NCBI GenBank assembly: GCA_021784595.1
Contig: JAJYHT010000039.1
Location: 1 to 48,058 of the forward strand
Direction: 5' to 3'
Length of the DNA: 48,058 bases
Origin: Bacillota bacterium
GTDB taxonomy: Bacteria > Bacillota > Sulfobacillia > Sulfobacillales > Sulfobacillaceae
Below the pieces are notes generated by a model, which had not been told where the DNA came from, did no database searches, and saw nothing but the letters and a program-made list of their open reading frames with translations. The first letter of the stretch is position 1. Each line of letters starts with the position of its first letter. Shown here piece after piece: positions 22,203 through 29,338 of this stretch. Made by a program: the position numbers and the translations under genes.

Positions 22203-22420
22203 GACAAGTTTTTAATGCGCCCGGAGATCTTGCACATGTTTTAGATATTTCAGGTATCAGGATTTTATGATGGATCAAAGGCTTCTGATGACGATCGGTG
22301 GTCAGGGCGCTATGCAGCCCATGCCTGTACCGCACTAAGGGAAAAACAACCTTGATCAATTGGTTGATTTTTTATACATGGTAATTCATGACTAGGAGAT
22401 ATTGGTAGTACAAGCCCCCG

Positions 22421-22621
22421 CTCGATGAAATCCTCGAACCTATCCGAAGTCTTCCCGGATCTACGGTAACAATCGGTATCTCGGGGTATGGGGGCTCCGG
22501 CAAGACAACTCTCGCCCGGGTAATGGCTGACCAATTGTCCGCGGCCGTGGTCTCCATTGATGAATTTGGCACGCGCAGGGTGTTCACGCGGTCCGATGAT
22601 TGGCACGGATTTGACAGAAAG
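22421..22621 (+). pseudogene. Truncated uridine-kinase-like P-loop NTPase fragment
   Basis: On the plus strand about 67 residues read as the start of a uridine kinase-type protein: LDEILEPIRSLPG, TVTIGISGYGGSGKTTLAR with a full Walker A, then VVSIDEF and DDWHGFDRKR. The frame is preceded within a few codons by TAG, no start codon or ribosome binding site fits, and sense disappears after the last motif, where the opposite strand takes over with a different remnant. It is a broken gene piece. Confidence 0.6.
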
Positions 22622-22639
22622 CGGGCTTACTTGTGGGAG

Positions 22640-22933
22640 CCCAACGAAATTGATTTTTCGCGTAAGTTCCACCCCAAACAGTTGACACAGCGTCTCGTTC
22701 GCCCTGTGGATCTCCCGGAGGATGTGCATGTCGACGGAGCGGCCGGCGAATAGGTCCGACAAGCTTGAAGCCCAACAGCCGAACAAAGCCCACGCGCTGA
22801 CCGAAGCCAATTGATCAACCAGGTCGATGTCGCTCTCCTCCCTGAAGTCGCTGCGGGTAGCCGAACCGAACACCGCCAACGACTCAATGCGTTCCTGCTG
22901 ACACAAGTGCCGTTGAACCACTGGAACAAGCAC
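22640..22933 (-). pseudogene. MNT-type nucleotidyltransferase fragment
   Basis: The frame entering from 22933 shows the minimal nucleotidyltransferase signature VFGSATRSDFREESDIDLV (GSx10DxD), then AGRSVDMHIL, which corresponds to the GRPVDLV segment of MntA-type antitoxins. Similarity fades after KINFV, at the junction with the plus-strand kinase piece, though the frame stays open by chance to 22310. MNT proteins usually pair with a HEPN toxin; none is present. It is probably a remnant, though a short real product cannot be excluded. Confidence 0.55.
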
Positions 22934-24216: not shown

Positions 24217-24714
24217 CTAATATGACCGCATATGATGCCAGTGCCCAGCGATTTTTCCCGCCAAAGACTCCAACAAATTTTGGTCATCAGGGCCAAAACG
24301 GCCAAGTTCTGGGCTGTCAACGTCAATCACTGCCACTACCTGGCCTGTGACCAGAATCGGGACCACAATTTCGGAGCGGGAAGCCGCATCACAGGCAATG
24401 TGCCCGGGAAATTCCAGCACATTATCAATAATGAGAGTTTGTCCGATAGTCGCCGCATGGCCAACGACGCCTTGATTTGGACCAATCCTGGTGCAAGCCG
24501 GAAGGCCGACGAAAGGTCCTAGCACCATGTCACTGGTTCCATGTTCGGCAATATAGAACCCTACCCAATTCACTCGGGCAAAAAACTGACCCAAAATCGC
24601 AGCCAGGTTTGCTAGGTTTGCCAGGTAATTGGGCTCGCCTTGAAGTATTCCTTCACTAAATTGCAGTACATCCTCTCGAGTCATTCCGTCCTGCCAGGTC
24701 ATGTCCATCTCCAT
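24217..24714 (-). CDS. GAF-domain free methionine-R-sulfoxide reductase-like protein
   Basis: The 165-aa GAF protein fits the fRMsr family, which reduces free methionine-R-sulfoxide: NWVGFYI, LGPFVGLPACTRIGPNQGVVGHAA, then NVLEFPGHIACDAASRSEIVVPIL and VIDVDSPELGRF. The catalytic-type Cys in HIACD and the resolving-type Cys in LPAC are present, but the third Cys, which lies in GVCG in E. coli, is Val here. Activity may still be possible with two cysteines. It is divergent from the helicase operon. Confidence 0.85.
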   Translation of the reverse strand: MEMDMTWQDGMTREDVLQFSEGILQGEPNYLANLANLAAILGQFFARVNWVGFYIAEHGTSDMVLGPFVGLPACTRIGPNQGVVGHAATIGQTLIIDNVLEFPGHIACDAASRSEIVVPILVTGQVVAVIDVDSPELGRFGPDDQNLLESLAGKIAGHWHHMRSY

Positions 24715-24809: not shown

Positions 24810-24840
24810 GAAGGTAAACCCCTTCGCAAGGAGGTCGGCT

Positions 24841-26550
24841 GTGGAACGCCTTCCGTTAATTGTCCAAAGCGATCTAACGCTTCTGCTGGAAGTGGATAAT
24901 CCCACATTCGAAGAGGCACGGCAATCCTTAGTAGGATTCGCCGAGTTGCTCAAAAGTCCCGAACATATCCATACCTATCGCATCACCCCTCTCTCCATCT
25001 GGAATGCCGTAGCGGCTGGAATCACACCTGACGATATGATCGGGCGTCTGACCACATATTCTCAGTATCCCGTACCCGACAGCGTAAGCTATTTCATTCG
25101 AGATCAGGGACGGCGATTTGGGCCCCTTCAACTTCGCAAAGCTCCTGATGGCGATGGCTTTTGGCTCACCAGTGATGATTCGCAGCTTTTGCTTCAAGTA
25201 TCGCGTCATAAAGCGGTGGTTCCCTTTCTCGGACCGGAAATGGGTCAGGGTTTTCGCATCCGGCCGGAACATCGCGGATTGATTAAGCAAGCCTTGGCCA
25301 AAATCGGTTGGCCCGCCAACGACCTCGCCGGTTATGCGCCCGGCATTCCAATGCCCTTGACCTTGCAAGATATCAGCCGCCGGGGACAGCCGTTTCGGAT
25401 GCGCGATTACCAACTCGACGCCATCAAAGCGTTTTCAGCTTCTGGCAATGGTGTGATAGTGCTTCCCTGCGGAGCCGGAAAAACCATGGTCGGGTTGGGC
25501 GCCATGGCAGAGGTGGGCAGAGACACCCTGATTCTTACCACCTCCGTCGCCGCTCTTCATCAATGGCGCAGCGAAATATTAGATAAAACGTCATTAGGTT
25601 CCGCATCGATTGGCGAATACAGTGCACGGGTAAAGGAAATGCGCCCGGTCACGCTAACCACCTATCAACTCTTGAGCCATAAAAAGGGGGCCGTCTACCC
25701 GCATTTTGACGCTCTCAACCAACATGATTGGGGACTCATCATCTATGACGAAGTGCATCTGCTGCCAGCCCCTGTATTTCGTCTCACCGCCAGTTTGCAA
25801 AGTCGCAGACGTTTAGGGTTGACTGCGACCTTAATTCGAGAAGATGGACGGGCAGACGATGTATTTGCCTTAATTGGTCCCAAACGATTTGACATGCCAT
25901 GGAAGGACTTGGAACAGCAAGGCTGGATTGCCAGTGCCCAATGCAAGGAAATTCGTGTGGCGTTGTCAAACACATGGCGTGAACGCTATGCACTGGCCGA
26001 GGATGCTGAAAGAATCCGCATTGCTGCAGAAAACCCAGCGAAACTCGGCACTATTCGTGAACTGTTAGACGAACACCACAACGACCACATTCTCATCATT
26101 GGTCAGTATCTGTCTCAATTAAAGACAATTAAAGAAGCTACCGGGGCTCCCGTGCTCACCGGAGAAACCCCAACGGCCGAGCGTGAACGCCTGTATCAAG
26201 CCTTTCGCGAGGGTCTCATCCCGGTCCTGATTGTGTCTAAAGTAGCAAATTTTGCTATCGACTTGCCGGACGCCAACGTGGCTATCCAGGTGAGTGGAAC
26301 CTTTGGATCCCGTCAAGAAGAAGCTCAGCGTTTGGGGCGCATCCTTCGCCCTAAATCGGACGGGGGACAAGCTACCTTTTATTCCATCGTGTCCGAGGAC
26401 ACCAGAGAACAGGACTTTGCCCAAAAACGCCAGCTTTTTTTATGCGAACAAGGCTATCGCTACGATATTGCGCACGCTGATGAAACGGGCTCGCCCGCTG
26501 ACAGTGCACGGATTATCCCGTTCCCCCGAGGCAAGGAGGTCCCATCGTGA
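24841..26550 (+). CDS. XPB-type superfamily 2 DNA helicase
   Basis: A 569-aa SF2 helicase of the XPB/Ssl2 type. An N-terminal Helicase_C_3-like domain (about 3-90: LTLLLEVDNPTFEEARQSLVGFAELL, THTYRITPLSIWNAVAAG-type) precedes the motor. Walker A PCGAGKT is at 209-215, DEVH at 303-306, and LGLTATLIREDGR contains the RED motif that marks XPB, followed by IGPKRFDMPWKDLEQQGWIA. Motif VI, QRLGRILRP, is at about 496. XPB proteins unwind DNA in repair and in opening of promoters. The GTG start follows AAGGAGG by 6 bases. It overlaps the next gene by GTGA. The Bax1 nuclease that accompanies archaeal XPB is absent. Confidence 0.92.
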   Translation: MERLPLIVQSDLTLLLEVDNPTFEEARQSLVGFAELLKSPEHIHTYRITPLSIWNAVAAGITPDDMIGRLTTYSQYPVPDSVSYFIRDQGRRFGPLQLRKAPDGDGFWLTSDDSQLLLQVSRHKAVVPFLGPEMGQGFRIRPEHRGLIKQALAKIGWPANDLAGYAPGIPMPLTLQDISRRGQPFRMRDYQLDAIKAFSASGNGVIVLPCGAGKTMVGLGAMAEVGRDTLILTTSVAALHQWRSEILDKTSLGSASIGEYSARVKEMRPVTLTTYQLLSHKKGAVYPHFDALNQHDWGLIIYDEVHLLPAPVFRLTASLQSRRRLGLTATLIREDGRADDVFALIGPKRFDMPWKDLEQQGWIASAQCKEIRVALSNTWRERYALAEDAERIRIAAENPAKLGTIRELLDEHHNDHILIIGQYLSQLKTIKEATGAPVLTGETPTAERERLYQAFREGLIPVLIVSKVANFAIDLPDANVAIQVSGTFGSRQEEAQRLGRILRPKSDGGQATFYSIVSEDTREQDFAQKRQLFLCEQGYRYDIAHADETGSPADSARIIPFPRGKEVPS

Positions 26551-28346
26551 TTTTTTCGCTCCCGCTCATTTTACAGCATCTCAATGAGGATGATCGGGCT
26601 ATTCTAGCCCGCCATGCCCGCGTGTCCAATGCCTCAGCCCCCGAGCAACTTGCCGCATTGGCATCCAAACTAGCGAATCCCGCGTATATTGCCCAAGCGG
26701 TGGGTCGCCTATCTGGTGACGAACGCCAGGTTTTGCTCCAATGGATGACGCACACCCGTGAAGACATGTTGATTCATGCTGGCCTAGTGGGCGCCCCGAA
26801 TCTGCCCTTGGCTAACAAACTAGGCCACATGGGCATCCTGTATCAAGTGCAGCCTCACACCAAAACTTGGCTGTATGTCATTCCTCACGAATTGGTTGCT
26901 CCACTCTTTTCTGTTCTATTGGCTCAATCGATGTCGTCTGCTCCGATGGCCCATGCCGTCCGCTCTCCCCGAGCCCTATCAGCTTCTCCCGTATGGTGGC
27001 CCATGATCCACGATTTCTTCATGCTGACCAGCCTCACCCGCCGCGAACCGCTGCTGGTGACACAACAGGGACAGGTTTACAGACGCATCATCACTAAACT
27101 GGCTCAAAAAACATGGAATAGAGGAAACGTGGCGCAACTCGATACGACCTTGTATGCCGCTCATGGATTAGGATTGCTCTCTCTGACCCCGTACCAAAAA
27201 CACATCACCGTCTCGTCTTATGCCGAAGAATTTTGGACTAAAACTCCTAGAGAATTTTTCGGAACTCTTGAACAATATCTGGCCTCACATTTCGGCATGG
27301 TTCTGCAAAAAATTTTTTGGACCTGCGCGGGGGGCTTAGAACCAGACCAGTGGCTTGACTTGGCTAGCTTTCATCAATGGGCCGCAGCCCAAAACATCTT
27401 TGGCTATAAATCGTATCAAGCAGAAAACTTTGTCAAGTTTCTCGCCAGTTTGGGACTAGCAGAACAGGAGGGCCCCCGATGGCGCTTAACGGACGCACCA
27501 TATTGGGCTTATCACCAAAAATTTGAGCCCATCTCCTCCCCCTCGGTAGTGATCCAGCCTACCGGTGAAGTCCTGGTACCTCCTGACGCTTCCTACGCGG
27601 ATCGCTGGATCGTCGATTCTCTAGCCACTCCGGTAAAGTGGGATCGAGTGGCGGTATACCATATCGACCGCGAGAGCGTGGCTTCTGCAGTTGAACGCGG
27701 CATCGTGGCCGATCAATACATTAAATTGTGGAAAACCGTCTCGCGAACTGTGATGCCGAGCAACATTGAATCCAATATTCGCGATTGGTACCGTGCGTTA
27801 AGTCGGCATCGCCTAGTGCGGGCTACCTTAATCCATAGCTCCGATGCCTCGGAATCCAGCCAAGCGGAACAAATTTTAGAAAAATCGGAGGCATTTTTGG
27901 AACGGTTGTCTCCGCAAGATCTGATTATTGCCGATAGCCGAGTGGATGCTGTGAAAAAATCGCTTGACCGAGCCGGCATCGCCATGCTGTCGACGATCTA
28001 TGCCCCAGGTGCAAGCCATTTGCCCGATGATTCTTCTTTGGACTGGGAGCCTTATGGTGAAAGCATTATGCCGGTTAACCCTCCGTTGATAAGCGCGGAA
28101 ATCCCAACCCATCTCTTGTTGCCTACCATGGACCTTTACACAATTCAAAGAGTGTTGCGCGAAGCCCTCCAACAAAATCACAAGGTTACCGTATACTTTA
28201 AAGACTCGGAAGACACACAGGCCCGCGCGCTGGTCATGGTCTCTGGCTTCATAGCCCAAGGACGGTTGCAAGGCGTCGATGCCGACCAGAAAGCTTTTGT
28301 TATCCCAGTACATAAGCTGGTGCTCGTACAGCCGGTGATGCAATGA
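26547..28346 (+). CDS. Helicase_C_3 and WYL-like protein coupled to XPB
   Basis: This 599-aa protein is translated with the helicase (GTGA overlap). The middle (about 325-400) has SPSVVIQPTGEVLVPPDASYADRW, a Helicase_C_3/XPB N-terminal-like domain, ending in VAVYHIDRESVASAVERGI. The C-terminal 80 residues (LLPTMDLYTIQRVLREALQQ, VTVYFKDSEDTQARALVMVSGF, DADQKAFVIPVHKLVLV) look like a WYL-type domain, which can sense ligands or nucleic acid. The first 300 residues are helical and not recognised. I infer it to be a partner or regulator of the helicase in DNA repair. No nuclease motif was seen. Confidence 0.8.
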   Translation: MIFSLPLILQHLNEDDRAILARHARVSNASAPEQLAALASKLANPAYIAQAVGRLSGDERQVLLQWMTHTREDMLIHAGLVGAPNLPLANKLGHMGILYQVQPHTKTWLYVIPHELVAPLFSVLLAQSMSSAPMAHAVRSPRALSASPVWWPMIHDFFMLTSLTRREPLLVTQQGQVYRRIITKLAQKTWNRGNVAQLDTTLYAAHGLGLLSLTPYQKHITVSSYAEEFWTKTPREFFGTLEQYLASHFGMVLQKIFWTCAGGLEPDQWLDLASFHQWAAAQNIFGYKSYQAENFVKFLASLGLAEQEGPRWRLTDAPYWAYHQKFEPISSPSVVIQPTGEVLVPPDASYADRWIVDSLATPVKWDRVAVYHIDRESVASAVERGIVADQYIKLWKTVSRTVMPSNIESNIRDWYRALSRHRLVRATLIHSSDASESSQAEQILEKSEAFLERLSPQDLIIADSRVDAVKKSLDRAGIAMLSTIYAPGASHLPDDSSLDWEPYGESIMPVNPPLISAEIPTHLLLPTMDLYTIQRVLREALQQNHKVTVYFKDSEDTQARALVMVSGFIAQGRLQGVDADQKAFVIPVHKLVLVQPVMQ

Positions 28347-29338
28347 CGCGTCGTCGCCGCATTCGCCCTCGGTTTTTTGCCTTCCTGGCACTCTTAGCCG
28401 GAGTGGGCATTGGCAGCTACAGCCTGTTGAGCCGCCCCATTCCCTCTGTAGCCCAGCATGTCGATCCACCAGTCGCGAGGGCAGCCTTAAAACCTCCCTC
28501 GTCCTTTTACACATTGACCCCGTTTGGCCTGCCCGAAGGATTGAGTAATTTTTCCGCTATTAGTACCACCGGGGGCATCATTCTAGTAGCTGGCGGGCAG
28601 ATCGCAGGCGGTATCAATTCAACGACTTATACCCTGACCAGCAACGGAGCGGTAATCAGCGGTTCGCTAAACCAACCACGCCAAGATGGCGGCTTAACCC
28701 TCATTCACGGCAACCCCGTCTACTTTGGAGGCTTGACATCTGCCCATCAGATAGTGTCCACCGCCCAATCACTGAATGGGAGCAGTCCTTATAACTTTCT
28801 TCCGCAAGCGCTTTATGGTTTCGCTGCCGCGACTGCCAACAACATCACCTATGTTGTAGGCGGCATTACCCCCATCGGGTACTCCGCCAATATTTATCGC
28901 ATTAACCAACAAGGCCAGGCCACGCTGTGGTCTACATTGCCTATGCCTATTGCACACCCGATGGCTCAAATATTTCGAGGTGCACTTTACATCGCCGGAG
29001 GTGCGACAGCGTCCGCCAAACTGGTTTCCACGATCTTTCGCGTCTCACTTCAAACCAAACAGCTCTCCCATTGGGCCGAAATGCCAGTCGGATTGGACAA
29101 CGGGTCGATGGCAGTGCTAGACAACCGGATTTGGATCTTGGGCGGTGCTACACGCAAAGGCTTATCCCGCGCAACCTGGGTCATTATGGGAAAAAACGCA
29201 GTGGTGCCCGCGCGGCCACTACCTGAGCCATTAAGCGGCGCCAGCGTGGTATCCGCCAATAACGCCATCTGGATTATGGGCGGCCACAGTCCTCAAGGCT
29301 TAAGCTCCACCATTTATATTCTAAAATCGTCGCCTTAA
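28343..29338 (+). CDS. Exported kelch-like beta-propeller protein
   Basis: The 331-aa product has a basic start and one hydrophobic segment (FFAFLALLAGVGIGSYSLL, about 11-29), so it should be anchored or secreted, with a propeller outside. About six repeats of kelch style carry a diglycine and spaced Trp (ILVAGGQIAGG, PVYFGGLTSAH, TYVVGGITPIG, LYIAGGATAS, IWILGGATRKG, IWIMGGHSPQG). Its ATG overlaps the preceding stop (ATGA), so an extracytoplasmic protein is coupled to two DNA-associated cytoplasmic ones, which is odd. Function is unknown. Confidence 0.78.
   Translation: MTRRRRIRPRFFAFLALLAGVGIGSYSLLSRPIPSVAQHVDPPVARAALKPPSSFYTLTPFGLPEGLSNFSAISTTGGIILVAGGQIAGGINSTTYTLTSNGAVISGSLNQPRQDGGLTLIHGNPVYFGGLTSAHQIVSTAQSLNGSSPYNFLPQALYGFAAATANNITYVVGGITPIGYSANIYRINQQGQATLWSTLPMPIAHPMAQIFRGALYIAGGATASAKLVSTIFRVSLQTKQLSHWAEMPVGLDNGSMAVLDNRIWILGGATRKGLSRATWVIMGKNAVVPARPLPEPLSGASVVSANNAIWIMGGHSPQGLSSTIYILKSSP

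Follow-up and report, generated by a model that had tools for sequence, protein, structure and literature searches.

A p52/Tfb2-like protein encoded beside bacterial XPB helicase: a probable counterpart of the XPB arm of TFIIH

XPB helicases and their described partners

In human TFIIH, the N-terminal domain (NTD) of XPB and the clutch domain of p52 form a pseudo-symmetric dimer through which XPB is recruited (PMC6422496). In this complex it has been shown that p52/p8 activates the XPB ATPase and also limits it, and that a p52 E359K substitution leaves 5% of the activation (PMC7708078). Another example of an XPB with a dedicated partner is the archaeal XPB-Bax1 helicase-nuclease. Since 1997 XPB has been known from bacteria, with an unclear role (PMC3353954), and its function there was still called elusive in a 2026 review (PMC13024598). 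The XPB of Mycobacterium tuberculosis (Rv0861c/Ercc3) is a weak enzyme by itself, needed in molar excess and slow in ATP hydrolysis (PMC3353954), as is expected for a motor without its activator. Deletion of this gene has been reported to cause hypersusceptibility to rifampin (PMC10534295), which hints at a role in transcription. According to the authors of a 2012 study, homologues of p44 and p52 had not been found in bacteria, and for want of p52 bacterial XPB was taken to act alone (PMC3353954).

A further group of relevance here comprises the WYL regulators PafBC, DriD, BrxR and CapW, in which a C-terminal Sm-like barrel follows a helix. The WYL domains of PafBC, DriD and SiwR bind single-stranded DNA (PMC10693628).

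Here we describe a bacterial locus in which an XPB gene adjoins the gene of a protein with p52/Tfb2 likeness along its whole length. The pair thereby recalls a complex already described, namely the XPB arm of TFIIH. We put at roughly three in four the probability that the XPB motor and this dedicated partner make up a stripped-down bacterial counterpart of that arm. What is new is the XPB-p52 module in prokaryotes, with a WYL-like tail in the protein described here. No paper on the function of the partner or of Rv0862c was found in the open-licence PMC literature, an earlier description elsewhere being possible, and NCBIfam holds no model of its own for the partner.

The locus and its p52-like partner protein

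The locus lies in the window, by which we mean the whole stretch of 48,058 nucleotides that was analysed, from a genome assembly of 3.79 Mb in 101 contigs. It consists of three co-directional genes, for XPB, the partner and a kelch protein, each of which overlaps its neighbour by 4 bases as read from the sequence (Table 1). The GTGA and ATGA overlaps described in an earlier note on this DNA are indeed present, at the starts at 26547 and 28343. The arrangement is not due to chance, since the same three genes are found in the same order in other genera. Promoter scans of the locus gave a result no better than that for shuffled sequence. Upstream of XPB and divergent from it is a gene for a GAF-domain protein (24217-24714, minus strand), whose position is kept in one other genome of the same genus (G004) and in one of another genus of the same family (G006). 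The window also encodes a nucleotidyltransferase resembling the MntA antitoxin (22310-22933, minus strand; NF047752 at E 6.5e-6, which is below its cut-off, and Polbeta at 5.4e-7).

Table 1. Features of the XPB-partner-kelch locus, in positions of the window
Feature	Position	Strand	Basis
Shine-Dalgarno AAGGAGGT of XPB gene	24828..24835	+	read from sequence
XPB helicase, 569 aa, GTG start	24841..26550	+	NF045503, PF16203 and PF13625 over cut-off
XPB N-terminal module (NTD/clutch and following small domain), residues 6-160	24856..25320	+	PF13625, hhalign
XPB RecA1/RecA2 helicase core with RED motif	25396..26475	+	ResIII and ERCC3_RAD25_C over cut-off
Shine-Dalgarno AAGGAGGT of partner, within XPB reading frame	26533..26540	+	read from sequence
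p52/Tfb2-like XPB partner, 599 aa, GTG start, XPB stop overlapped as GTGA	26547..28346	+	
Winged helix 1, residues ~14-111	26586..26879	+	AlphaFold2 model; p52 alignments start at residues 36-38
Winged helix 2, residues ~152-222	27000..27212	+	AlphaFold2 model; p52 N-half match 6tru_D
Winged helix 3, residues ~234-314	27246..27488	+	AlphaFold2 model; p52 N-half match 6tru_D
Clutch / Helicase_C_3 domain, residues 331-419	27537..27803	+	PF13625, superposition, family profile
Small beta-alpha-beta-beta-alpha domain, residues 420-477	27804..27977	+	AlphaFold2 model; p52 alignments
Predicted disordered linker, residues 483-524	27993..28118	+	pLDDT < 50
WYL-like small beta-barrel, residues 529-599, without W-Y-L residues	28131..28343	+	DriD superposition; PF13280 in orthologues
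Kelch gene, 331 aa, ATG start, partner stop overlapped as ATGA	28343..29338	+	

The first gene encodes a bacterial XPB helicase. Its product reaches 817.7 bits against NF045503 ('DNA repair helicase XPB'), where the curated equivalog cut-off is 610, and the earlier note's reading of an XPB with SF2 and RED motifs holds, with GAGKT, DEVH, the RED motif (REDG, residues 333-336) and QRLGRILRPK all kept. The N-terminal Helicase_C_3 domain that is expected of the family is matched by PF13625 over residues 6-130 (E 6e-35), and solved XPB structures align over residues 186-543. The M. tuberculosis enzyme belongs to the same helicase family and shares the N-terminal domain and the RED motif, but has been treated in published work as acting alone. 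UvrB is present in the host genome, so XPB was rejected as a replacement for UvrABC.

In the partner, the only Pfam domain over its cut-off is Helicase_C_3 (PF13625, residues 334-435; 40.6 bits against a cut-off of 34.2), the same domain that begins XPB and the second of its kind at the locus, as the earlier note had also stated. Matches to the Tfb2 families of Pfam (PF03849, 12.4 bits, cut-off 34.5) and NCBIfam (TIGR00625, 12.5 bits, cut-off 320.7) did not reach their cut-offs, and it was these sub-threshold matches that pointed to TFIIH. Because they lie below the curated cut-offs, the protein is named p52-like here, as opposed to being filed as Tfb2. An AlphaFold2 model, built from 35 sequences without templates (mean pLDDT 83), predicts, from the N-terminus onward, three winged helices followed by the clutch and a small domain, and then a disordered linker that leads to a C-terminal barrel. 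The small domain may correspond to the C-terminal, p8-binding domain of p52, whose position it takes in alignments that reach human p52 residue 459, but this region of the partner (residues 415-482) also resembles the XPB module.

When this model was compared with the PDB by Foldseek, ranks 1-23 were all taken by p52/Tfb2 chains (E 5.7e-14 to 1.5e-5), in alignments spanning about 330-540 columns, followed by the XPB NTD and then by WYL proteins. With VIA-align, the clutch superposes on the human XPB NTD at an rmsd of 1.2 A over 89 residues (Z 13.1), and residues 122-323 fit the crystal structure of the N-terminal half of p52 (6tru_D) at 3.5 A over 152 residues (Z 9.1). Superposition of the whole chain on p52 is loose (rmsd 13-15 A), because the domains flex or sit differently, and the claim of p52 likeness rests on domain order and on the fit of each domain. 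A separately modelled partner from Thorarchaeota (pLDDT 76), which has no WYL-like tail, likewise finds p52 at rank 1 (E 2.2e-9).

At the level of sequence, family profiles were needed: a phmmer query made of the window partner alone had no match in the PDB, and its clutch alone matched neither p52 nor XPB there, giving unrelated chance matches only. A profile built on a 35-member alignment of the partner family and run against all PDB sequences had significant matches only to the XPB NTD (3.5e-10) and to the clutch of p52/Tfb2 (0.0035-0.013). Among these 35 members Helicase_C_3 is found in all and Pfam Tfb2 weakly in six (best 6.6e-4). Profile-profile comparison by hhalign aligns partner residues 334-482 with XPB residues 6-160 at 99.6% (E 1.4e-23); the clutch of the partner and the NTD of XPB are homologous. 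The partner is p52-like by its fold, its domain order and its genetic link to XPB. The p52 residue E359 lies in the fragment VETNYRLY (checked on the PDB sequences of p52), which aligns with IQPTGEVL in the partner and VQSDLTLL in XPB; by our reading of the strand register, as opposed to a structural superposition, its position corresponds to Q337 in the partner and Q9 in XPB. Of 86 partners, 77 have Q or E there, and all 81 XPBs compared have Q.

The C-terminal tail had been described as WYL-like in the earlier note, and structure prediction bears this out, with matches that include DriD, BrxR, PafBC and CapW and with the Sm-like barrel and preceding helix of a WYL domain in the predicted structure. 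Its superposition on DriD (Z 10.0, rmsd 2.6 A over 70 residues; VIA-align) is nearly equalled by those on Hfq, Sm and SH3 barrels (Z about 9). A Pfam scan gave no match of PF13280 (WYL) to the window protein, which has RLQ in place of the W-Y-L residues, but PF13280 matches two of the 35 aligned orthologues (best E 2.8e-8). Members of the family without the tail are common. Compared with p52/Tfb2/GTF2H4, the partner of XPB/Ssl2, the window protein shares the order of winged helices and clutch, followed by a small domain that may correspond to the C-terminal one of p52, as well as a clutch homologous to the XPB NTD and the top fold match in the PDB; it differs in the added tail, in the adjoining XPB gene of a prokaryote and in scoring below the curated Tfb2 cut-offs. 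TFIIH subunits p8, p34 and p62 were not found on a cursory look. XPB-Bax1 is alike in that XPB has a dedicated partner, but no nuclease family was found in the window partner or the kelch protein, as had been noted before, and the partner resembles p52 as opposed to Bax1.

Human XPB T119 is mutated in trichothiodystrophy; in actinobacterial partners and in the XPB of the window (T49) the residue at this position is threonine, but in the window partner it is aspartate (D374; 27666-27668).

Distribution of the pair and the proposed complex

In a count of Helicase_C_3 proteins in 154 genomes of the window's class, 90 have at least two and 62 have none, as for a pair that is kept or lacking together. 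The two genomes with a single one are G033, which is 61% complete and has its match at the start of a contig, and G036, where the gene breaks off; joint loss was rejected for the latter, as the gene merely meets the end of its contig. In a sample of 61 genomes, XPB and the partner adjoin in nearly all of those with XPB. Among XPB loci drawn from 80 genomes of many phyla, the partner is found beside XPB in Bacillota, Actinobacteria, Planctomycetes, Chloroflexi, Hydrogenedentota, Spirochaetia, Sumerlaeota and Latescibacterota, and lies one or two genes away from it in Thorarchaeota (Asgard archaea). A further 27 genomes across phyla were picked mostly for having no partner beside XPB, and 22 of these encode at least one more Helicase_C_3 protein besides XPB; the other five (G069, G072, G078, G081 and G084) have a single match. 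For most XPB loci that lack an adjoining partner there is one at another place in the genome.

Several further observations were made at these loci. G072 and G078 (Methanolliviera and Methanophagales; loci L092 and L105) encode an XPB with its NTD and no second Helicase_C_3 protein. Two tandem paralogues of the partner stand beside XPB in Chloroflexi (L081:4911-9554 and L150:2330-6625), and some partners repeat the module that follows the clutch, as might be expected of a heteromeric assembly. In the Thorarchaeota loci L087, L098 and L100, a divergent gene just upstream of the partner encodes a clamp-loader-like ATPase, by eye of the replication factor C type.

By analogy with TFIIH, the clutch domains of XPB and the partner would form a pseudo-symmetric dimer in which their sheets pack against each other, and through this dimer the partner would recruit XPB and both raise and cap its ATPase, while the winged helices would place XPB on DNA. 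The WYL-like tail might bind single-stranded DNA made by the motor, a guess for a tail so degenerate, and might signal this DNA to the complex itself, to RNA polymerase or to repair factors. Such a complex probably opens or remodels DNA in repair or at stalled transcription, and probably acts alongside the canonical UvrABC pathway as opposed to taking its place. The odds appear about even for a broader proposal, in which bacteria and Asgard archaea widely hold an XPB-p52 complex as a minimal TFIIH-like translocase older than eukaryotes, working at RNA polymerase or at lesions, with bacterial WYL-tailed forms that sense single-stranded DNA themselves, and in which eukaryotic TFIIH inherited its XPB arm from this translocase.

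A widespread XPB-linked p52-like partner offers a concrete complex and provides a weak enzyme with a candidate activator. With its gene beside that of XPB, the role of bacterial XPB, so long unclear, has become open to experiment. A counterpart of this kind in prokaryotes, one in Asgard archaea included, would have consequences for views on where TFIIH came from and on the coupling of DNA opening with repair or transcription in bacteria.

Alternative readings and the kelch gene

The closer sequence match of the clutch to the XPB NTD than to p52, given above, makes a separate duplication possible, and the partner might on that account be a prokaryotic fusion of a copied XPB N-terminal module with unrelated winged helices, themselves common folds, which binds XPB and whose likeness to p52 is convergent and of little functional meaning. 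We consider this unlikely, since in whole-length Foldseek comparison the best 23 matches of the window protein are all p52/Tfb2 chains and p52 also leads for that of Thorarchaeota, and domain order and probably the small domain after the clutch agree with p52 as well. Less probable still is a transcription factor of winged-helix/WYL type, comparable to PafBC or DriD, that regulates the operon or a DNA-damage response and forms no complex with XPB. The barrel of the partner does match WYL regulators, which sense single-stranded DNA (PMC10693628), and winged helices are present in its model, but the only domain found in all members is the clutch, homologous to the XPB NTD. Members without the WYL tail are frequent, and the partner co-occurs with XPB even where the two genes lie far apart. 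The window protein differs from the known WYL regulators in lacking the WYL residues and in carrying three winged helices and a clutch upstream of the barrel.

The XPB-p52 module as preferred here leaves the kelch gene outside, while the earlier note had taken all three genes together as a combination without a described counterpart, missing p52. When gene order was checked in other genomes, only XPB and the partner were conserved beyond the order. A single three-gene system, with a membrane-anchored kelch protein that tethers the XPB-partner complex or signals to it, is in our judgement very unlikely. Within the order, nine of 15 genera, belonging to two families, have the kelch gene next to the partner, and stop and start overlap or abut in g1, g3, g4 and g9. 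However, the neighbourhood is largely syntenic within the family anyway, orthologues have moved elsewhere in g2, g5, g6 and g10 and were not found in g8 or f3 among the genera and families compared, one genome has the kelch orthologue without XPB and the partner, and no other phylum examined has a kelch gene beside the pair. Clustering of the neighbours of the 80 XPB loci also gave no third gene that recurs across phyla, the large clusters appearing to be shadow ORFs. The kelch gene was accordingly rejected as a default part of the system, on the evidence of the tree, the displaced orthologues and the wider synteny of the family. Most simply, it is a co-transcribed operon neighbour in this order of bacteria, a functional tie to the pair being possible. 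Least probable of all, and hardly to be credited, is an anti-phage defence system, which the adjoining of an SF2 helicase and a WYL-like protein might suggest, given that WYL proteins regulate several defence systems. Against it, PADLOC has no match for the partner or the kelch protein and PHROG none for the partner, XPB matches generic helicases only, and the locus is stable and near-universal in the order, with conserved flanks, as opposed to a mobile island.

The kelch protein itself has motifs above cut-off (Kelch_1, 55.5 bits) and an arginine-rich start followed by one hydrophobic segment from residue 11, so that its propeller is probably membrane-anchored outside the cell, in agreement with its earlier description as extracytoplasmic. 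Kelch proteins of one family, which share an RxRPRF-like start and a single hydrophobic segment, are found across the order and outside it, often at a distance from XPB (L195-L204 and L212).
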